Source of the DNA: Pseudomonas rubra
Lineage (GTDB): Bacteria; Pseudomonadota; Gammaproteobacteria; Pseudomonadales; Pseudomonadaceae
Direction: 5' to 3'
DNA length: 64,000 nucleotides
Assembly (NCBI RefSeq): GCF_028656935.1
Contig: NZ_JAMDGZ010000027.1
Span: 1-64,000, forward strand
In this document: positions 21,242 through 38,596 of the stretch, one piece after another
Position numbering within the stretch: position 1 is the stretch's first letter
Layout: each line of letters begins with the position of its first letter
Translations under genes and position numbers: made by a program
The notes under the pieces: model-generated
Databases searched by the model: none
What the model saw: only the letters and a program-made list of their open reading frames with translations
What the model was told of the DNA's origin: nothing

Positions 21242-21574
21242 CTACCGTTTCGTCAGTAGATAGACACAGTAGGTGCCACCCAGCGGAATCGCTGTTGCCA
21301 TGCACAGCAGATAAAAAAGCGCATAGAGGCCGTTTTTACCTGGGGTCTCGACAAAAAGGCCGCGGTTCCAGAATGCTGAAGAAGAGAACTTCAAAGCGCT
21401 CTGTTCAATCAACTTTCTCGAAAATGGGAACAACAACAGACTCGCACTGGAAAGCAGCAAGTAAATCAGGTTTTCCCGGGTTGAGAATGAATTGTCGTAC
21501 CACCAGATTGCTGTGCCTATCGCAAACAGGCTCAGTGCGAGCAAGAGGTTTTTAACATAGTAGTTTTTTTCCAT
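21242..21574 (-). CDS. Immunity protein for the pore-forming bacteriocin (E1-like, 3 TM)
   Basis: A 110-aa basic membrane protein encoded convergently to the bacteriocin, with 7 bp between the stop codons. Three hydrophobic segments are evident (about residues 9-25, 37-53 and 83-106). Size, three transmembrane helices and opposite-strand position match the colicin E1/Ia immunity class, which blocks the channel in the inner membrane of the producer. Opposite-strand coding allows constitutive immunity independent of bacteriocin induction. Assignment rests on context and topology; I do not recognise a specific sequence motif. Confidence 0.78.
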   Translation of the reverse strand: MEKNYYVKNLLLALSLFAIGTAIWWYDNSFSTRENLIYLLLSSASLLLFPFSRKLIEQSALKFSSSAFWNRGLFVETPGKNGLYALFYLLCMATAIPLGGTYCVYLLTKR

Positions 21575-28763: not shown

Positions 28764-29930
28764 ATGAGTGGATTTTTCCACGGCGTTACCGTCACCAACG
28801 TCGACACTGGTGCACGCACCATTGCGTTGCCTTCTTCCTCGATCATCGGCCTGGTCGATACCTTCACTCCCGGGCCTACCGCCAGTGCCAAGGCCAACGA
28901 CCTGGTGCTGATCACCAGCGAGCGTGAAGCGGTTGCCGCGTTCGGCGCCGATGCGGCGATCACCCGGGCCTGCCAGGCCATCTACAGCCGTGCCAAAGCG
29001 GTCATCGTTGCCTGCGGCGTAGCCAAGCTCGACGAAGAGGCGGCGCAGACTTCGGCAATCATCGGCGGTGTGCTGGCCGATGGCAAACGCACCGGCCTGC
29101 AGGCGCTGCTCGACGGCAAGAGCCGTTTCAACGCCCAGCCGCGCCTGCTGGTCACGCCCAAGCACAGTTCCACCCTGGCCGTTGGTACCGCCCTGGTGGC
29201 CCTGGCTGACAAGCTGCGTGGCCTGGCCATCATCGATGGCCCGAATACCACCGACGAGGCGGCCATCGCCTACGCCGACAACTTTGGCGCCAAGCGTGCC
29301 TACCTGATCGACCCGGGCGTGCAGTACTGGGACACCGGCAAAAGCGCAACCCTCGATGCCCCGGCATCGGCCTGGGTGGCTGGCCTGTTCGCCTGGACCG
29401 ACAGCGAGTACGGCTTCTGGGCCTCGCCATCGAACAAGGAATTCGTTGGCATCACCGGCACCAGCCGCTCGATCGAGTACCTGGATGGCGATGCCACTTG
29501 CCGGGCCAACCTGCTCAACAACGCCAACATCACCACCGTGATTCGCGATGACGGCTATCGCCTGTGGGGCAACCGCACCCTGAGCAGCGACCCCAAGTGG
29601 GCTTTCGTCACCCGCGTGCGGACCATGGACATCGTCATGGACGCCATCCTCTACGGCCACAAGTGGGCCGTGGACCGTTCGATCACCGCGACCTACGTCA
29701 AGGATGTCACCGAAGGCCTGCAGGCGTTCATGCGTGATCTCAAGGCCCAGGGCGCAATCATCAATTTCGAAGTGTTCGCCGACCCCGAGCTGAACACCGC
29801 CAGCCAGCTGGAGCAGGGCAAGGTCTACTGGAACATCCGTTTCACCGACGTGCCGCCCGCCGAGAACCCGAATTTCCGTGTCGAAGTCACCAACCAGTGG
29901 TTGACCGAAGTCCTCGACCAAGCCGTTTAA
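28764..29930 (+). CDS. Contractile tail sheath protein
   Basis: A 388-aa P2 FI-type sheath protein. It begins SGFFHGVTVTNVDTGARTIA and contains SSIIGLVDTF, the subtilisin-like sheath core (GTALVALADKLRGLAIIDGPN, VAGLFAWTDSEYGFWASPSN) and the C-terminal handshake region EGLQAFMRDLKAQGAIINFE. Presence of a sheath establishes an R-type (contractile) tailocin instead of an F-type. A good ribosome-binding site (TGGAG) precedes it; the tube gene follows after 12 bp. Confidence 0.96.
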   Translation: MSGFFHGVTVTNVDTGARTIALPSSSIIGLVDTFTPGPTASAKANDLVLITSEREAVAAFGADAAITRACQAIYSRAKAVIVACGVAKLDEEAAQTSAIIGGVLADGKRTGLQALLDGKSRFNAQPRLLVTPKHSSTLAVGTALVALADKLRGLAIIDGPNTTDEAAIAYADNFGAKRAYLIDPGVQYWDTGKSATLDAPASAWVAGLFAWTDSEYGFWASPSNKEFVGITGTSRSIEYLDGDATCRANLLNNANITTVIRDDGYRLWGNRTLSSDPKWAFVTRVRTMDIVMDAILYGHKWAVDRSITATYVKDVTEGLQAFMRDLKAQGAIINFEVFADPELNTASQLEQGKVYWNIRFTDVPPAENPNFRVEVTNQWLTEVLDQAV

Positions 29931-29942
29931 GGAGCAACAACC

Positions 29943-30452
29943 ATGGCAATGATTCCCGAAACCCTGGCCAACCTGAACCTGTTCGTCGATGGCGTCAGCT
30001 TTCAAGGTGACGTCCCCAGCCTGACCCTGCCCAAACTCACCCTGAAGATGGAGGAACACCGTGCCGGCGGCATGGACATGGCGATCGAAATCGATCAGGG
30101 CATGGAGAAGCAGGAAGCCGGCTTCGTCACCACCGGCGTGCGCCGCGAGTCGCTGAAGTTCTTCGGCCTGGCTGACGGCTCGGCATTCAACGGCACCTTC
30201 CGCGGTGCCTTCAAAGGCCTCAAAGGCAAAATCACCCCGGTCATCGTCACCCTGCGCGGGGCGCTCAAAGAGGTCGACATGGGCGACTGGAAACCGGGCG
30301 ACAAGGCCGAGATCAAGCACAACGTCGCCGTGACCTACTACAAGCTCGAAGTCGACGGCCGCCTGGTCTACGAAATCGACCCGCTGGGCATGAAGCGCGT
30401 CATCAACGGCGTCGACCAGCTCGCCGCTCAACGTTCGGCCCTGGGCCTTTAA
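29943..30452 (+). CDS. Tail tube protein
   Basis: A 169-aa P2 FII-type major tail tube protein that stacks in hexameric rings inside the sheath. Key regions are IPETLANLNLFVDGVSFQGD at the N-terminus and GGMDMAIEIDQGMEKQEAGF; the C-terminal half carries the KHNVAVTYYKLEVDG strand. AAGGAGC precedes the ATG. It is the second of the two abundant structural genes and is followed after 9 bp by gpE. Confidence 0.95.
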   Translation: MAMIPETLANLNLFVDGVSFQGDVPSLTLPKLTLKMEEHRAGGMDMAIEIDQGMEKQEAGFVTTGVRRESLKFFGLADGSAFNGTFRGAFKGLKGKITPVIVTLRGALKEVDMGDWKPGDKAEIKHNVAVTYYKLEVDGRLVYEIDPLGMKRVINGVDQLAAQRSALGL

Positions 30453-30461
30453 GGAGCTCCC

Positions 30462-30764
30462 ATGCAGCAAGCAAACAAGACACCGAGCTGGCTGGCGGTG
30501 AGCGCCGAGCGCGTCGTCGTGACCTTGAGCAAACCCTGCCAGGCCAATGGCGTTCAAGTCGACAGTCTGGCGCTGCGCGCGCCGACCGTGCGCGATATCC
30601 GTACTGCGCAGTCACAAGCCAGTGGCGATGACGAGCAGCGGGAGCTGAACCTCTTCGCCTCCCTGGCCGAAGTCGGGATCAAGGATCTCGAGGAACTGCC
30701 GCTCAAGGATTACGGCCGCTTGCAGGCGGGCTATTTTCGTCTGGTGCAAGACGACGAGCTTTGA
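30462..30764 (+). CDS. Tail assembly chaperone gpE (zero-frame product)
   Basis: A 100-aa protein of the P2 gpE type that binds the tape measure and delivers tube subunits. It ends ...LVQDDEL-stop, with the last sense codon and stop reading CTT TGA (30759-30764). Position between tube and tape measure matches R-pyocins and P2-like tails. AAGGAG lies upstream of the ATG. The stop is probably bypassed in part by ribosomal frameshifting; see the extended product. Confidence 0.88.
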   Translation: MQQANKTPSWLAVSAERVVVTLSKPCQANGVQVDSLALRAPTVRDIRTAQSQASGDDEQRELNLFASLAEVGIKDLEELPLKDYGRLQAGYFRLVQDDEL

Positions 30765-30876: not shown

Positions 30877-30904
30877 GCGTATAGCCATGCAAAAGGGGGA
30901 TCAG

Positions 30905-33328
30905 ATGGCGAGCAAACTGGCGCAAGCGCAGGTGATTGGTGCCATCGTCAAGCCGACGCTAGGAGTGGTTTTCAAGGCGGTCCTGGAGCGAATCAACATT
31001 TTCAAACAGGCCGATCAGAACACTCTTGGCAAGACCCAGAGGCCGCGCGAGGAACAGCACGGGACAGGTTCAGATGAATTGGCTTCGACTGATGATTCGG
31101 CAGCGGGGCAGGACGCTAAGGTGCCAACGCAGTCGAACAGCAGCAACCCGTTGGTGGTAAAAATTGCGGGCCTTGATGTGCTGTCACTGGGCTTGATGAA
31201 GTTGGTCTTAGGGTTGAAGTCAGGCGCAGGCCAGGCTGAAGCTCGCCCGGGTGGGTCCAGCAAGGCACAGCCAGGTCTTGGCCTGGCCCCATCGGGCAGC
31301 AATACAACACAAGCAGCAGTGCCGGAAGTTGATTGGCTTTCCCTGGGCGCGATGACAATGGCCCTTGGCAAACAAGTGGGCAAGGTTCGCCCAGGTAAAG
31401 CGAGCAAGGCTCACGCAAAGGCGCGTTCAGGCGGGCCTGAGCAACGTTCCGCAGCCAAGAAAGAAACCCAACCCACCGGGTCTGGAAGTGCGCACCAGCC
31501 GCCTGCAGAGCAACCTCCTCGCACTGAAACATCGCACGACCCGTCAGCGAAACCGGACGATGCTGCTGAGCGGTGGGGTAAGCGTCTTGATTATCTGGAG
31601 GCGGGATACGATATTTTCAGTATCTATACCAGTGACCAGTCACCTGAAGAAAAGGCCAAGAGTTATGGTGAAACCCTGGGCAAGCTCGCAGGGGCACGGT
31701 TCGGGGGCTGGGTTGGAGGCAGACTCGGTGGGCCGACCGGGGCTGTATTCGGCGAACGGGGCGGCGAACTGATTGGCGAATGGGGCGGCGGTTTGGCGGG
31801 CGAAGGCTTGGGTACGTATCTGGGAAAACGCCGGATGAGTGACCCGGAAGCATCAGCTCCAGCTTCAAGGCTTGCAACAGGCCAGGCCGAAGCTCGTCCG
31901 GGTGCGTCCAACAAGGCACTGCCAGGTCCTGGTCTGGCCCCATCGGGCAGCAATACAACACAAGCAGCAGTGCCGGAAGTTGATTGGCTTTCCCTGGGCG
32001 CGATGACAATGGCCCTTGGCAAACAAGTGGGCAAGGTTCGCCCAGGTAAAGCGAGCAAGGCTCACGCAAAGGCGCGTTCAGGCGAGCCTGAGCAACGTTC
32101 CGCAGCCAAGAAAGAAACCCAACCCACCGGGTCTGGAAGTGCGCACCAGCTGCCTGCAGAGCAACCTCCTCGCACTGAAGCATCGCACGACCCGTCAGCG
32201 AAACCGGACGATGCTGCTGAGCGGTGGGGTAAGCGTCTTGATTATCTGGAGGCGGGATACGATATTTTCAGTACCTATACCAGTGACCAGTCACCTGAAG
32301 AAAAGGCCAAGAGTTATGGTGAAACCCTGGGCAAGCTCGCAGGGGCACGGTTCGGGGGCTGGGTTGGAGGCAGACTCGGTGGGCCGACCGGGGCTGTATT
32401 CGGCGAACGGGGCGGCGAACTGATTGGCGAATGGGGCGGCGGTTTGGCGGGCGAAGGCTTGGGTACGTATCTGGGAAAACGCCGGATGAGTGACCCTGAG
32501 GCACCAGCGCCAGCTTCAAGGCCTGCTCAGGCGCTGCCACCGATATCCTTGTTGCGCAAGGACAGTGGCAATGTCACGGCGGATGGACCGATGCCGGTGC
32601 TGACGAGGCTGTCATCTGTGCCGTCGCCAATACCAGGGGCCGGCCCTTTGCCAAGTGCATCCTCGGGGCAGCCTGCGCATGACGGTTTGAGTGGCTGGAT
32701 GGCGAAGCGCTGGTTTGCTCCCCCAGCAGACACGTGCAAACCATGCCCCAGCGAGCTGGGCAAAACCACACCCGCCGTAGGCCAAGCACCGACTAGAGCT
32801 GATGAGGACGACAAACTCATGAAGTTTGTCAGCGCATCAGTGACCGGGGCATTGCTTGGGTCGGCGCCAGGCGTGCCTGTTCTGCTGCCAAGCCGGGAGT
32901 TTGGCGCATGGGTGGGGGGGCATCTCGCAGGTACGCTTGACAGCAAACAGGCCGGATCGCTCGCCACCCCCGCCCAGGACAGGGGACAGGCCCCGTCAGC
33001 CGCCCGGCAACCCTTGAGCTTGCAGCGTTCCAAGGATGACGCTGGCATTGCCGTCGGGCGAATCGGCAACACTGTTCGTGGGATGGAGCCTGCGGCAGAC
33101 CAGCCAGGCGTGCTTTCCATGGCACCCGGGATGGAACAGCCTGGCGCCAGCCAACAGCCGCAGCTAGTTCAGCAAATCACCTTTTCACCCACCATCACGG
33201 TTCAGGGCGGGATGAGCGATCCCTTGCAGCTTGCCCAGCAAGTCGGTGCCATTGTCCGGCGGGAGTTCGAGGATCTGCTCCGTCAATCCACCAGCCGTCA
33301 GCTGTACGACGTTCCTCATGTTGCTTAA
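30905..33328 (+). CDS. Tape-measure protein with an internal 217-residue tandem duplication
   Basis: An 807-aa product in the tape-measure position. Its start MASKLAQAQVIGAIVKPTLGVVFKAV and its end, with QITFSPTITVQGG and VGAIVRREFEDLL, are typical of P2-like tape measures. The middle is atypical: Ser/Pro/Gln-rich linkers and two nearly identical 217-residue units (residues about 109-325 and 326-542). Each unit contains WGKRLDYLEAGYDIFS and a glycine-zipper segment (GARFGGWVGGRLGGPTG and following). The protein has little of the long coiled coil usually seen. The ATG at 30905 is preferred to 30887 because AAGGGGG precedes it by 5 bases. The protein should set tailocin length. Confidence 0.85.
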   Translation: MASKLAQAQVIGAIVKPTLGVVFKAVLERINIFKQADQNTLGKTQRPREEQHGTGSDELASTDDSAAGQDAKVPTQSNSSNPLVVKIAGLDVLSLGLMKLVLGLKSGAGQAEARPGGSSKAQPGLGLAPSGSNTTQAAVPEVDWLSLGAMTMALGKQVGKVRPGKASKAHAKARSGGPEQRSAAKKETQPTGSGSAHQPPAEQPPRTETSHDPSAKPDDAAERWGKRLDYLEAGYDIFSIYTSDQSPEEKAKSYGETLGKLAGARFGGWVGGRLGGPTGAVFGERGGELIGEWGGGLAGEGLGTYLGKRRMSDPEASAPASRLATGQAEARPGASNKALPGPGLAPSGSNTTQAAVPEVDWLSLGAMTMALGKQVGKVRPGKASKAHAKARSGEPEQRSAAKKETQPTGSGSAHQLPAEQPPRTEASHDPSAKPDDAAERWGKRLDYLEAGYDIFSTYTSDQSPEEKAKSYGETLGKLAGARFGGWVGGRLGGPTGAVFGERGGELIGEWGGGLAGEGLGTYLGKRRMSDPEAPAPASRPAQALPPISLLRKDSGNVTADGPMPVLTRLSSVPSPIPGAGPLPSASSGQPAHDGLSGWMAKRWFAPPADTCKPCPSELGKTTPAVGQAPTRADEDDKLMKFVSASVTGALLGSAPGVPVLLPSREFGAWVGGHLAGTLDSKQAGSLATPAQDRGQAPSAARQPLSLQRSKDDAGIAVGRIGNTVRGMEPAADQPGVLSMAPGMEQPGASQQPQLVQQITFSPTITVQGGMSDPLQLAQQVGAIVRREFEDLLRQSTSRQLYDVPHVA
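31229..31879 (+). repeat. 651-bp tandem repeat, copy 1 (inside the tape-measure gene)
   Basis: From GGCCAGGCTGAAGCTCG at 31229 to the start of copy 2; period 651 bp, exactly 217 codons, so the frame is kept. The two copies differ at only about eight to ten residues, clustered at the edges, so the duplication is recent or homogenised by recombination. Confidence 0.95.
31880..32530 (+). repeat. 651-bp tandem repeat, copy 2 (inside the tape-measure gene)
   Basis: Direct continuation of copy 1, beginning GGCCAGGCCGAAGCTCG and ending near CTTCAAGGCCTGCTCAGG. The same landmarks (for example GGGTACGTATCTGGGAAAAC) occur at 31810 and 32461, 651 bp apart. An assembly collapse or expansion here would change the copy number. 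Confidence 0.95.
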
Positions 33329-33337
33329 GGAGGTGCC

Positions 33338-34183
33338 ATGACCTACATGGATCAGTTGCAATCAGGGCTTGGCGCCCTGGTGGCGGCGGGTGAGGCAGGG
33401 CGGCGCAGCGCTGATGAAATGCTGGCGCCGGTCAAGGATGCCGCCGCCGAGTTCATCGGTGCCGCCGCCGAACTAGAGGCGTTGCCCTTTGTCGGGCCTG
33501 CCATTGGTGCCAAGCTGCAGCGTAGCTTGCGGGCGATCAACAAGGCTCAGTCCAGCGTCGACCAGGCGCTGGCTAAGTACGATCGGGCCGTGGCGGTGGT
33601 GGCGCAGGTACGTGACGGCGTCGCCACGGTGAAGGCCCAGGTCGGCCGGGTCAGCGCCGCGATCAATCGGTTGGCGGGCAAGATCAGTCCGTCCCTGGCC
33701 AATATCCTGCCGACCAGCAGCTTTGCCCCTGAAGTAACGCCGGCGGCAGAAGCGGTCAAGCCGTTCCCGCATTTGCTGATTCTGCAGCCGCTCAAAGCCC
33801 AGTCACCGGCCTATTACTTCAACCTCGATACCGCAGCATTCGATGAACTGCGTCGGCAGACCAGTTTTCGCTGGGCGGGCCAGGAGCGTCTGACCCGCAG
33901 CACTGCGCAACAGGCAGTGGGTCTGGGTGATGAGAAGATCAGCATCAAGGGCGCGATTTTCCCTGGCTTCAAGGGCGGGCTTGGCCAGTTGCAGGCGTTG
34001 CGCAGCATCGGCCGGCAACTGCAACCCTTGACCCTGACCAGTGGTTACGGCGAGGTGTTGGGCACCTGGTGCCTGACCGGCGTCGATGAAGACCAGAGCA
34101 ATCTGCTGGCCGGGGGCATCCCGCGAAAACAAGGTTTCTCACTGGAGTTTGTGAGCTATGGCGACGACCTGCAGAACCGCTGA
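33338..34183 (+). CDS. Tail protein U (terminator of the tail tube) with N-terminal extension
   Basis: A 281-aa protein whose C-terminal half (about 140-281, PFPHLLILQPLKAQSPAYYF to GFSLEFVSYGDD) matches the P2 gpU family. The N-terminal 130 residues form an Ala-rich helical extension absent from P2 gpU, as in R-pyocin homologues. AAGGAGG precedes the ATG 9 bp after the tape measure. It overlaps gpX by 26 bp. Confidence 0.88.
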   Translation: MTYMDQLQSGLGALVAAGEAGRRSADEMLAPVKDAAAEFIGAAAELEALPFVGPAIGAKLQRSLRAINKAQSSVDQALAKYDRAVAVVAQVRDGVATVKAQVGRVSAAINRLAGKISPSLANILPTSSFAPEVTPAAEAVKPFPHLLILQPLKAQSPAYYFNLDTAAFDELRRQTSFRWAGQERLTRSTAQQAVGLGDEKISIKGAIFPGFKGGLGQLQALRSIGRQLQPLTLTSGYGEVLGTWCLTGVDEDQSNLLAGGIPRKQGFSLEFVSYGDDLQNR

Positions 34184-34432: not shown

Positions 34433-35485
34433 ATGCAGCCAGTGTTTCGCCTCGTTGCCGATGGCAAGGACATTACCGAACTGATCAACGATCGCTTGCT
34501 GTCATTGCGTACCTCGGACAAGCCTGGAATGGACTCCGACGAGTTCGAGTTGCGCATTGACGATCGCGACGGCGCCGTGACCCTGCCTGCCAGAGGGGCT
34601 CTGATCGAAGTGCACCTGGGCTACGCCGGCCAGGTCTTGACGCGCCTGGGGCGCTATACCGTGGATGAGATCGAATTGTCCGGTCCGCCCGACAGTATCG
34701 TCATCCGTGGCAAAGCCAGCGACATGCGTGGTACTGGCAAGAGTATCCGCAGCGGTAGCTGGGAGGACGTGCCACTGCAGCAGATCGTGAGGGACATTGC
34801 CGCGCGCAACGGCTGGCAGCCGGTCTGTCCGGTGAGCACACGGGTGCTACGGGTCGATCAGTTCAACGAGTCGGACTTCAACTTCATTACCCGCCTGGCC
34901 AGGCAGTACGACTGTACGGCCAAGGTCGGTGACGGCAAGTTGCTGGTGCTGTCGCGTCAGGCCGGGCGCAGCGCCAGTGGGCAGGCCCTGGGGGTCGTTA
35001 CCCTAAACCGCAGCGATGTGAGCCGCTGGCAGATTCGCTTGGCCGACAAAGGCACGCACAAGGCTGTGCAAACCCGGCATCAGGATCCCAAAAGCGGCGG
35101 GCTGAAGATTATCGACCTGGCCAATGACGACTCGCCGGCCGGGTTGCAGCCGGTGCACAGCGACCGTCATCTCTACCCCAACAAAGCTGCTGCCGAGCAG
35201 GCTGCCAAGGCGCGCCTGGCGGCGTTCAACCGCAGCACTGCCAGCGTGCGGCTGGAAATGGCCGGACGCACCGATCTGTTTGCCGAGCGCCTGATTCTTG
35301 CCCAGGGCTTCAAGGACGGCCTGGACGGTGAGTACCTGATCGAGTCGGTCGAGCACAGTTTCAGCGCCAGTGGCTGGGGAACGACGGTCGACTGCAACGG
35401 TGGCAGCCAAGGCAAAGCCAGAGCCAAAGGCAAGAAAGCCAAAAGCAGGCCGGGCCTGAAGACGATTCAGCTGCACCCCATTTGA
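34433..35485 (+). CDS. Baseplate hub protein D (late control / gp27-like)
   Basis: A 350-aa P2 gpD-family hub protein. It starts MQPVFRLVADGKDITELIND and contains DSDEFELRIDDRDGAVTLPA, DQFNESDFNFITRLARQYDC and the C-terminal hub region (GEYLIESVEHSFSASGWGTT), ending in a Lys-rich tail. It forms the central hub that holds the spike. Confidence 0.93.
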   Translation: MQPVFRLVADGKDITELINDRLLSLRTSDKPGMDSDEFELRIDDRDGAVTLPARGALIEVHLGYAGQVLTRLGRYTVDEIELSGPPDSIVIRGKASDMRGTGKSIRSGSWEDVPLQQIVRDIAARNGWQPVCPVSTRVLRVDQFNESDFNFITRLARQYDCTAKVGDGKLLVLSRQAGRSASGQALGVVTLNRSDVSRWQIRLADKGTHKAVQTRHQDPKSGGLKIIDLANDDSPAGLQPVHSDRHLYPNKAAAEQAAKARLAAFNRSTASVRLEMAGRTDLFAERLILAQGFKDGLDGEYLIESVEHSFSASGWGTTVDCNGGSQGKARAKGKKAKSRPGLKTIQLHPI

Positions 35486-36551: not shown

Positions 36552-36657
36552 GCGTCGGGGCCGCGCAAAAGATTTCCTGTTTCAACCAACCACATGAGGA
36601 CGGCCAGCACGGCTGTGTCCTCGCTATCAATTGATTCAACAAAAAAGGACTTTAAAC

Positions 36658-37959
36658 ATGGCTGAAAAAAATATCATCGTCGACCGTGGCATTCCCCCGA
36701 GCGGCAATAGCGGCGGCGCCGCAGGTGGCAATGTCTTCGGCGGCTTCTGGGGCGGCGGCGACATGAGTAGCGTGGTCGGTTCGGTGACGGTGTCGATCGA
36801 TGGCGTCAGCAGGCCCAGCGGCCCAAGTTTTAACGCGGCGGCGGTGTTCAACTCCACGATCGTCGAATCGGTGCTGTCAGGGGATGGCTGGCCGAGTATC
36901 GAGGCGTACTACGACCTGGGCATGAGTGTCTGGGGCATTCTGCCCTACCAGATCCTCGAGGTACGTGACGAGGTCCGCGACAACTTCTTGCGCAAGGAAC
37001 GCGCCCTACCGGCCACCCTTGACGCCGAACAGCGCGCCGCCGAAGCCGCTGCCGGCAGCAATGCGGCCCTGAGTCCGGGGCAGCGCCTGGAACGCTCCAT
37101 CGGCATCGTCAAAGCCATGATGGCCAAGCGCGACGAGTTGATCAAATTCAATCGTCTGCGCCTGTCCACGTCGCCGGGCAGTGAGGTGCTCGAACGCAAT
37201 ATCGACAAAATGGTCGCCGAATTGAAAAAACTCGATGACGAGCAGATTCCGCCCGCCATCGACCAGGTCCTGGATATGCTGAGCGCAGGCTTGAGCCTGC
37301 ACGGCGACCTGAGTGCAAACGCGATGCTCCAGGAGAAACTCGACAAGCTGCAGGCCCAAGCCCGGGAAGTGGCGGAGCAGGAGGCATACAAAAGCGCAGT
37401 GAGTTTTGCCAGCGATGTCGGCAAAGAGGTCGCCAGCCGCTTCGGTACGCAGATGGCCAAGGCTGCCGACGAACTGAAGAAGGATATCGCCGGCAAGACG
37501 GTCAAGAGCTACGACCAGGCCATGCAGGCGTTTGAAAAGCTTGCGCGCAACCCGGGCTTCAAGATGAACCAGAAGGACACTGCCGCCATCGTTCAGGCCC
37601 TCAATGCCCTGGATGTGGCAACCTATGCCGACAACGCCATGCGCTTGGGCAAAGCGTTTGGTGTAACGGGCAAGGCTGTGCAGGCAACGACCCTGGCGCA
37701 GAAGGCGGCCAGTGGTTTCAGCACCGGTGAATGGAAGCCGTTCTTTCTGGAGCTGGAAAGCATTGCCGTGGGCGCTCTGGTAGGCGCTGCCGCCGGCGCC
37801 GTACTGGGTGCAGGCCTGGCGCTGGTGCTGGCACCTGGTTTGGCCGCAGGTGCAGGTATCATTGCCACCGGGGTGATTCTGGCTGCCGTGTCGTCCTACA
37901 TCGACGCCCAGGCAATGGAGTCGTTCAACCAGATGGTGCTCAATGCAGTAGCATCCTGA
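36658..37959 (+). CDS. Second pore-forming colicin-like bacteriocin (433 aa)
   Basis: The first 50 residues are Gly/Ser-rich (SGNSGGAAGGNVFGGFWGGG), like colicin translocation domains. A middle region of about 300 residues is helical. The C-terminus is a channel domain with FSTGEWKPFFLELES (about 354-368), followed by a Gly/Ala/Leu hydrophobic hairpin (about 371-414). The GxxTGEWxxxFLxxE pattern is shared with the bacteriocin at 20215-21234, but the two proteins are otherwise diverged. AAGGAC precedes the ATG. It follows the lysis genes without a terminator, so it is probably co-transcribed with the tailocin and released by the same lysis. Confidence 0.82.
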   Translation: MAEKNIIVDRGIPPSGNSGGAAGGNVFGGFWGGGDMSSVVGSVTVSIDGVSRPSGPSFNAAAVFNSTIVESVLSGDGWPSIEAYYDLGMSVWGILPYQILEVRDEVRDNFLRKERALPATLDAEQRAAEAAAGSNAALSPGQRLERSIGIVKAMMAKRDELIKFNRLRLSTSPGSEVLERNIDKMVAELKKLDDEQIPPAIDQVLDMLSAGLSLHGDLSANAMLQEKLDKLQAQAREVAEQEAYKSAVSFASDVGKEVASRFGTQMAKAADELKKDIAGKTVKSYDQAMQAFEKLARNPGFKMNQKDTAAIVQALNALDVATYADNAMRLGKAFGVTGKAVQATTLAQKAASGFSTGEWKPFFLELESIAVGALVGAAAGAVLGAGLALVLAPGLAAGAGIIATGVILAAVSSYIDAQAMESFNQMVLNAVAS

Positions 37960-38008
37960 AAAGATGGGCTGGGGGGAGCCGCCGTGCTGCTGCCCCTGGC
38001 CCGGCTCA

Positions 38009-38596
38009 ATGGACGCAGTGAATATGAATGTGATGAAAGCCGACCCGCAGCAGGGTGCCCACCTGCATATCCCGTACCTGTTGATTGGCGTGAGCCTGGC
38101 GCCGATCATCCTGCTTGCCTGGCTGGTACCGGCCGCGGCAGATCAGGGCTTTTACGCCGAACTTGAGCGGTTTCTCGATGATTGCCTGTTCGGCCGGGTG
38201 GGCGTCTGGTCATCGATGTTCCCCCTGACAGCCAAGGCGATCGGCAATTACGTTGCCGTGGCCGCGCCGCTTTTTTCCTTGTGGATTACTGTCTGCATCA
38301 TGCGGCGATCGTTGCTGCGGCCGGGGCCACCGGCGCAGGTGGCACTGGGCAGATATGCATTGATTGCCGCAGGCTGTGTGCTGCTGGATGCTTTTCTGAT
38401 CTACCAGAATTTTTTTACCTTCACCGACTTTGCCGCTCACTCGAGAAAGTTCCGCTTTTTTGGCCTGAGCGTGGTGTTCTTTCCGTTTATCGCGATGGTG
38501 TCCCTGTTGGCGCTCTACGTGATGACATTCTTCAGCTACAACCTGCTGTTGCGCTTCCCTCGCGAGGTGCTGGCGCAGCGCAGGCAGCGGCATTGA
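38009..38596 (+). CDS. Immunity protein for the second bacteriocin (colicin A-like, 4 TM)
   Basis: A 195-aa membrane protein with four hydrophobic segments (roughly residues 22-40, 75-97, 113-135 and 148-172). Four helices and this size match the colicin A/B/N immunity class, unlike the 3-TM partner of the first bacteriocin. It is encoded on the same strand just downstream of the toxin, whereas pore-colicin immunity genes are usually on the opposite strand. The start is uncertain (ATG 37964, 38009, 38024 or 38033 in frame; none has a clear ribosome-binding site). Function is inferred from position and topology. Confidence 0.72.
   Translation: MDAVNMNVMKADPQQGAHLHIPYLLIGVSLAPIILLAWLVPAAADQGFYAELERFLDDCLFGRVGVWSSMFPLTAKAIGNYVAVAAPLFSLWITVCIMRRSLLRPGPPAQVALGRYALIAAGCVLLDAFLIYQNFFTFTDFAAHSRKFRFFGLSVVFFPFIAMVSLLALYVMTFFSYNLLLRFPREVLAQRRQRH

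Follow-up and report, generated by a model that had tools for sequence, protein, structure and literature searches.

Near the middle of a 64,000-nucleotide stretch of Pseudomonas rubra DNA (assembly GCF_028656935.1, contig NZ_JAMDGZ010000027.1, positions 1 to 64,000; hereafter the window), a gene that a sequence-only reading had taken for a tape measure contains the same 217 codons twice in succession. This raises the question of what the repeated unit is, how old its duplication is, and whether the number of units bears on the length or the action of the particle. In tape measures of the lambda type, the loss of ruler repeats shortens the tail, and units, duplications and losses in tape measures were reportedly described by Belcaid and colleagues in 2011. 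Our comparison of the gene with its relatives suggests that the tailocin family on the recA side has replaced the usual ruler core with repeatable, recombining pieces.

The tailocin cluster and the content of the repeated unit

The genes around the duplication most likely encode an R-type tailocin with the 813-residue protein as its tape measure, an assignment made from gene order, locus, the likeness of sheath and tube, and a match to phrog_794. Sheath, tube, chaperone, tape measure, gpU and gpD follow one another in this order (Table 1). The contractile tail genes lie between mutS and cinA/recA together with an S24-type repressor, a holin, a chitinase-like lysin and an Rz-like gene that scored slightly below the Pfam cut-off; this locus is a known hotspot of R-tailocins (PMC7815802, PMC8319346). 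The tape-measure gene follows sheath and tube, with the chaperone on one side and gpU on the other. It matches phrog_794 (E 2.5e-17) over three stretches, and its zipper and C-terminus are also found in relatives. The nearest of 50,697 phage records to the DNA of sheath and tube are OQ658366.1 (75% identical) and phage PS17 (74%). A search of the genome for the P2-type capsid family PF05125, the sole capsid family searched, gave no match.

The tailocin genes are flanked by two genes that encode a colicin pore-forming domain (PF01024; 20134-21234, E 2.4e-52; 36631-37959, E 6.8e-26). A match to the colicin E1 immunity family (E 1.5e-9) lies at 21242-21574 on the minus strand, and a candidate immunity gene with no Pfam match (37964-38596) adjoins the second PF01024 gene.

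Table 1. Positions of the tape-measure gene, its parts and the neighbouring tail genes in the window.
Feature	Position	Strand	Basis or remark
Tail sheath	28764..29930	+	PF04984, phrog_23
Tail tube	29943..30452	+	PF04985, E 1.3e-58
Tail assembly chaperone, gpE type	30462..30764	+	PF10109, E 3.1e-22
Tape-measure gene, 813 aa, without PhageMin_Tail/TP901 core	30887..33328	+	phrog_794 and synteny
Repeat unit A, 651 bp, 217 codons	31227..31877	+	self-comparison
Linker of unit A, residues 115-223, 79% P/A/G/S/T/K/Q/E	31229..31555	+	no helix in very low-confidence model
Glycine-zipper domain of unit A, residues 224-324	31556..31858	+	local HMM, 77.6 bits, E 4e-24
Repeat unit B, 651 bp, 217 codons	31878..32528	+	self-comparison
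Linker of unit B, residues 332-440	31880..32206	+	repeats linker A; one 4-residue helix in very low-confidence model
Glycine-zipper domain of unit B, residues 441-541	32207..32509	+	local HMM, 80.4 bits, E 5.5e-25
Possible degenerate third zipper, residues 645-690, more hydrophobic	32819..32956	+	HMM, 1.1 bits, E 2.6
Conserved C-terminal part of tape measures, residues 726-813	33062..33325	+	relatives match ~27-63%
gpU-type tail protein	33338..34183	+	PF06995, E 5.5e-34
Baseplate hub gpD	34433..35485	+	PF05954, E 4.2e-18

The tape measure had no Pfam match at E 0.01 and no match to TIGR01760 at E 0.01, and a local HMM for the PhageMin_Tail core was negative on it. With tape measures of the P2/phiCTX/PS17 type (phrog_794; PF10145, TIGR01760), represented in full by L044 of the same genus, it shares the position between gpE and gpU, a similar stretch of the first 60 residues, the zipper and the C-terminus, but it differs from them in having no PhageMin_Tail/TP901 core and two well-formed zippers rather than one. 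OQ658366.1 (L226), recorded as Pseudomonas phage sp. and by its gene order probably a P. aeruginosa R-pyocin, shares the tail family of the window and the order sheath, tube, chaperone-sized gene, tape measure and gpU-sized gene. Its tape measure differs, however, with 741 residues, a core and one significant zipper.

Each unit is composed of a low-complexity linker of ~110 residues and a domain of ~100 residues that other tape measures of the tail family also have. Aligned over 69 rows, the domain has glycines every four residues or multiples of four, with conserved GxxxG spacing, and those at alignment positions 42, 46, 50, 58, 62, 70, 74, 82, 86, 90 and 94 are invariant or present in at least 90% of the rows. 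By its sequence pattern the domain is a glycine zipper, and both the HMM and the alignment place one in each unit, as had been proposed. An AlphaFold model of the zipper has three helices at low confidence (mean pLDDT 58); in a model of the whole protein (mean pLDDT 32), ~90 of the 217 residues per unit are helical at very low confidence. The best match of the zipper model in a viral structure library had E 1.0, and PDB sequence searches with the whole protein or the R-pyocin tape measure as query returned none. The zipper profile matched a tape measure in the PDB (9ki1_g, its residues 590-648, E 0.0014) and one unrelated chain (E 0.062). Downstream of the units, residues 645-690 may be a more hydrophobic remnant of a further zipper; the HMM signal is weak (Table 1), and the similarity to the zipper of unit A was reached by 4 of 2000 shuffles.

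Age of the duplication and exchange between the copies

The two units stand head to tail at a lag of exactly 651 bp, in frame and without an indel. They are identical at 633 of 651 bases over the full unit and differ at 11 of 217 residues, which confirms the near-identical tandem duplication of exactly 217 codons that had been described with about ten residue changes; the coordinates given for it, 31229-32530, are correct to within 2 bp. The first 300 nt of the unit match at 97%, and the best segment at lag 651 has 630 identities in 645 positions. The self-match of the protein at a lag of 217 residues scores 1071, as opposed to at most 58 in 10 shuffles, so that the duplication is not due to chance. 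At E 0.001, the unit matches only units A and B in its own genome. Internal repeats were scored by a lag scan, as BLAST self-comparison gave no off-diagonal match, even for the window gene; Tandem Repeats Finder, in which the longest period covered is 500, reported no repeat in the window. We rejected an assembly artefact, since the copies are distinct at 18 sites and a second genome holds the same two-unit gene.

This second genome is a contig of a viral collection (L164), in which the orthologous cluster is 94.9% identical over 9.9 kb. Its tape measure also has 813 residues and two units with the same boundaries, and is 92% identical in protein sequence to the window gene. The two copies of L164 are identical to each other at 642 of 651 positions, whereas orthologous units of the window and L164 are identical at only 608 and 611. 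At 32 sites, evolution has been concerted, both copies of one genome agreeing against both of the other; 4 sites show the same A/B difference in both genomes, all of them at unit positions 620-651, the right edge, and 18 further sites show other patterns (a single deviating copy, or more than two letters). As the copies within a genome are more alike than the orthologues, and 32 concerted sites stand against 4 with a shared difference, the duplication predates the split of the window and L164 and has since been homogenised by exchange between the copies, which has spared the edge. In the window pair, 11 of the 15 differences in the first 645 positions lie within the outer 57 and 26 bp (permutation on distance to edge, 236/200,000, p ~0.001), which is the expectation if conversion misses the unit edges. 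A fresh duplication is rejected by the shared A/B differences and the concerted sites, and an independent duplication in each lineage is disfavoured by the identical boundaries and the four shared differences near the right edge. Thus the copies are nearly identical, as had been noted, but the recency that this seemed to imply does not hold, the duplication being older than it suggests.

A phase-variable repeat should have copies that recombine with each other and a copy number that differs among close relatives. The first was found (32 against 4 sites), which bears out the earlier view of the unit as a substrate for expansion and contraction as far as exchange is concerned, and owing to this exchange an in-frame gain or loss of the unit is mechanically possible. 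The second was not, both genomes having two units (n=2 only). No one- or three-unit version of the gene was found in 398 genomes of the genus (two candidates scored per genome), two scans of a genome contig collection found no relative, three scans of the viral collection found L164 as the sole close relative, and tblastn in phages gave no match. Phase variation, which the sequence-only reading had envisaged, therefore gains no support from the genomes scanned.

Core absence and zipper number among relatives

In the 398 genomes we took the best 120 of 141 gpU places (window excluded) and read the upstream DNA for tape measures. Two were left out, L140 (207 aa) and L115 (ORF end 647 bp before gpU), leaving 118 relatives and the window, 119 in total; L109, cut by the contig end, was kept and counted with the core class. 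The zipper HMM was seeded from L044 and the core HMM built from L044 residues 131-500, both being trained on the same set. The core HMM overlaps PF10145 and TIGR01760 in L044, which is positive for the core in Pfam and NCBIfam. On 238 decoys, the zipper HMM gave one match at E 0.019, above the cut of E 0.01, and the core HMM none at E 0.1. The core class (n=93) comprises 84 tape measures with at least 300 core residues (median length 882 aa, range 749-1404) and 9 with a partial core (188 residues in L113, 214-289 in the other eight).

The local HMM found the zipper domain in 119 of 119 tape measures. Those with a core signal have exactly one zipper in all 93 cases, whereas the 26 without a core have one in 3, two in 14 (window included) and three in 9 cases (Fisher p 1.2e-21, with kinship left out of account). 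That extra zippers go with a missing core is a real pattern in these relatives, although not a phylogenetically independent one; in the literature searched, chiefly open-access journals, we found no account of tailocins that lost the core and multiplied the zipper. In the 25 core-less relatives, the median length is 497, 608 and 762 aa for one, two and three zippers, respectively (rho 0.80). A simple compensation of total length was rejected, the core-less relatives having 467-769 aa and the window 813, compared with the full-core median of 882.

At least 23 of the 25 core-less relatives share a contig with recA, at a distance of no more than ~17 kb; for the remaining two (G097, G190), recA was not among the matches listed. 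The recA-side locus also holds seven partial-core tape measures (L045, L046, L077, L131, L132, L142, L095), so the locus alone does not decide the core state. With 214-225 core residues, the partial-core tape measures on this side have the appearance of intermediates in the loss of the core.

A gpU tree was built from 62 rows, namely the window, L164 and 60 of the 120 relatives, with partial cores counted as core. In this tree a single supported branch (100/94) sets all core-less rows, together with three partial-core rows, apart from the others. On the core-less side, 23 rows form one clade, the window groups with L164 and L052 with L047, with weak support for the order among these groups (84/46, 95/76). 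The tree requires at least two changes of core state and at least eight of zipper number. The core may have been lost in one event or in several, and one loss with regain in places can also be read from the tree. Since the main clade of 23 core-less rows includes neither the window nor L164, the duplication in these two may be separate from the gain of zippers in that clade, as judged from the gpU sequences.

Several recA-side tape measures (L074, L089, L111) are like that of the window in having no core, two or three zippers and charged extra copies, with a more hydrophobic last copy. The other recA-side core-less tape measures differ from it in that their gpU belongs to a different clade, and in ten core-less relatives with repeats at lags of 152-186 the copies are ~36-76% alike in protein sequence, less than those of the window.

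The split in hydrophobicity extends to the core-less relatives as a group. Their last zippers (25 copies) have a median GRAVY of 0.72, compared with 0.64 for standard zippers (93), and their upstream zippers (31 copies) are more charged, with a median of −0.02 and a range from −0.78 to 0.80. The last copy ranks highest in hydrophobicity in 21 of 22 multi-zipper relatives, the exception being L070, and there are extra zippers that match standard ones in this respect (L088, L116, L070, L100). The zippers of units A and B are of the charged kind (22% charged residues, GRAVY −0.29 and −0.30; standard medians 9% and 0.64). Long glutamate-rich runs occur in the inter-zipper linkers of core-less L100, L146, L071 and L074.

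Two pairs of relatives combine near-identical gpU with very different tape measures: L071/L072 (gpU path ~0.007; 304 of 580 aligned residues of the tape measures identical) and L070/L075 (316 of 641). In both, the middle of the gene seems from these sequences to have been exchanged as a cassette, so that zipper number there changes by such replacement of the middle and perhaps also by repeat gain.

Possible roles of the tandem modules

In our favoured reading, which we regard as evenly poised between right and wrong, the tandem modules took over the lumen-filling and ruler role of the lost core in an R-type tailocin tape measure. The standard PhageMin_Tail/TP901-type core would have been lost, and where it was would now stand the tandem pair of 217-residue modules, each made of a low-complexity linker rich in Pro/Ala/Ser/Lys and, after it, an amphipathic GxxxG segment of three predicted helices, a zipper apparently related to the single one of ordinary tape measures. 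With the core gone and the lumen still in need of filling and measuring, tandem soluble zippers, connected by linkers, are the obvious candidate. They would pack against one another inside the tail tube and, together with the linkers, act as lumen filler and ruler modules; the hydrophobic C-terminal zipper would retain any membrane role. Exchange between copies would let the array gain or lose whole modules in frame, and tail length would then change in steps.

The increase in length with zipper number in the core-less relatives supports the ruler reading. Known systems offer parallels. In the diffocin, the tape measure spans the whole tube as a trimer over ~1388 angstrom and is modelled to residue 817 (PMC11329794), which on division gives ~1.7 angstrom per residue. 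For TP901-1, tail length is reported to drop linearly with the extent of deletion (PMC5099701); the loss of its ruler repeats shortens the tail, but they are 11 or 18 residues long as opposed to a 217-residue unit with linker and domain. Tailocins 1 and 2 of P. protegens CHA0 occupy the mutS-cinA/recA locus, as does the window cluster, and two particle lengths are there ascribed to different tape-measure lengths (PMC7815802). From the sequence, we infer that unit number would affect particle length. The gain of ~30 nm per duplication that had been estimated is unsupported: the ~90 residues per unit predicted as helical, at very low model confidence, would as helix alone give roughly 13 nm, and anything beyond this would depend on how far the low-complexity linker is extended.

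More tentatively, and with considerable doubt, we propose that after core loss the multiplied soluble zippers came to form a step ruler that can be re-tuned by recombination between copies in domesticated tailocins. If so, tail length or potency could vary from one gene, with the sheath, tube and fibre genes untouched. Tape measures are usually compared by length; the comparison of a core with one zipper against no core with mostly two or three suggests that tailocins of one chromosomal niche have a ruler rebuilt from repeated domains.

Alternatively, the expansion might be neutral: in a tailocin, which ejects no DNA, the middle of the tape measure might be weakly constrained, and repeats might arise and vanish with no consequence for length or killing. 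The rates relative to L164 are as this would predict, with an omega of 0.51 in the tape measure (L164:6001-8442; 74.5 non-synonymous changes; zippers ~0.7) and of 0.00-0.06 in sheath, tube, gpE, gpU and gpD; so is the pairing, in L071/L072, of near-identical gpU with tape measures that are unlike for the greater part. The Rz-like gene has an omega of 0.21 and the candidate immunity gene one of 0.12; the row for the bacteriocin gene was excluded, as it was computed across a 3-nt gap. We nevertheless judge neutral expansion unlikely, since frame and glycine spacing have been kept across the 69-row alignment, the gene is open in both the window and L164, and the last zipper is almost always the most hydrophobic, albeit in relatives that are kin and not independent. 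Several points call for caution over the ruler reading: the omega values of the tape measure and its zippers are also typical of poorly constrained filler, the hydrophobic third zipper of the window is weakly recognisable, and the kinship of the core-less rows, the hydrophobic extra zippers of some relatives, the low confidence of the models and the lack of copy-number variants in the scans all count against it as well.

The duplicated zippers might instead enter the inner membrane of the target, more copies causing stronger depolarisation. The T6SS effector Tde1, with an N-terminus similar to Paraburkholderia/Burkholderia tape measures, permeabilises the inner membrane by a glycine zipper (PMC10240207); killing by R-type bacteriocins works through the dissipation of ion gradients, and five TM helices are predicted in the diffocin tape measure (PMC11329794); the hydrophobic extra zippers of the four relatives named above would also fit. 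The charge and low hydropathy of the window zippers, however, make the membrane-active segment of the sequence-only reading a poor description of the duplicated copies, and in TP901-1 a second hydrophobic region is dispensable and the authors doubt a membrane role (PMC5099701). By analogy, a membrane function would suit the hydrophobic last zipper better than the charged duplicated ones, and a dose effect of the latter appears quite improbable.

We also think very little of diversifying selection, in which the tape measure would be targeted by bacterial resistance or immunity, through a blocking protein or a partner in the inner membrane, and module shuffling would alter its contact surface. 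In its favour, the tape measure is the fastest-changing of the proteins compared with L164 (the tail fibre being outside the comparison), tailocins with near-identical gpU have very different tape-measure middles, and carotovoricin tape measures of Pectobacterium vary in 9 homology groups (PMC13195805), but omega is below 1 in every section of the gene.

The pattern of cores and zippers also offers strain pairs in which tail length, tube filling and membrane action can be separated. Along with the tail fibre, the tape measure is, given its rapid change relative to L164, a candidate target of selection when bacteria compete. Large internal repeats also occur in other tape measures, at lags of 60 (L159), 61 (L162), 66 (L096) and ~186 (L074 group). 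L159, L162 and L096 have a full core and 1135-1404 aa, and their repeats at lags of 60-66 are 70-87% identical, a second kind of ruler expansion.
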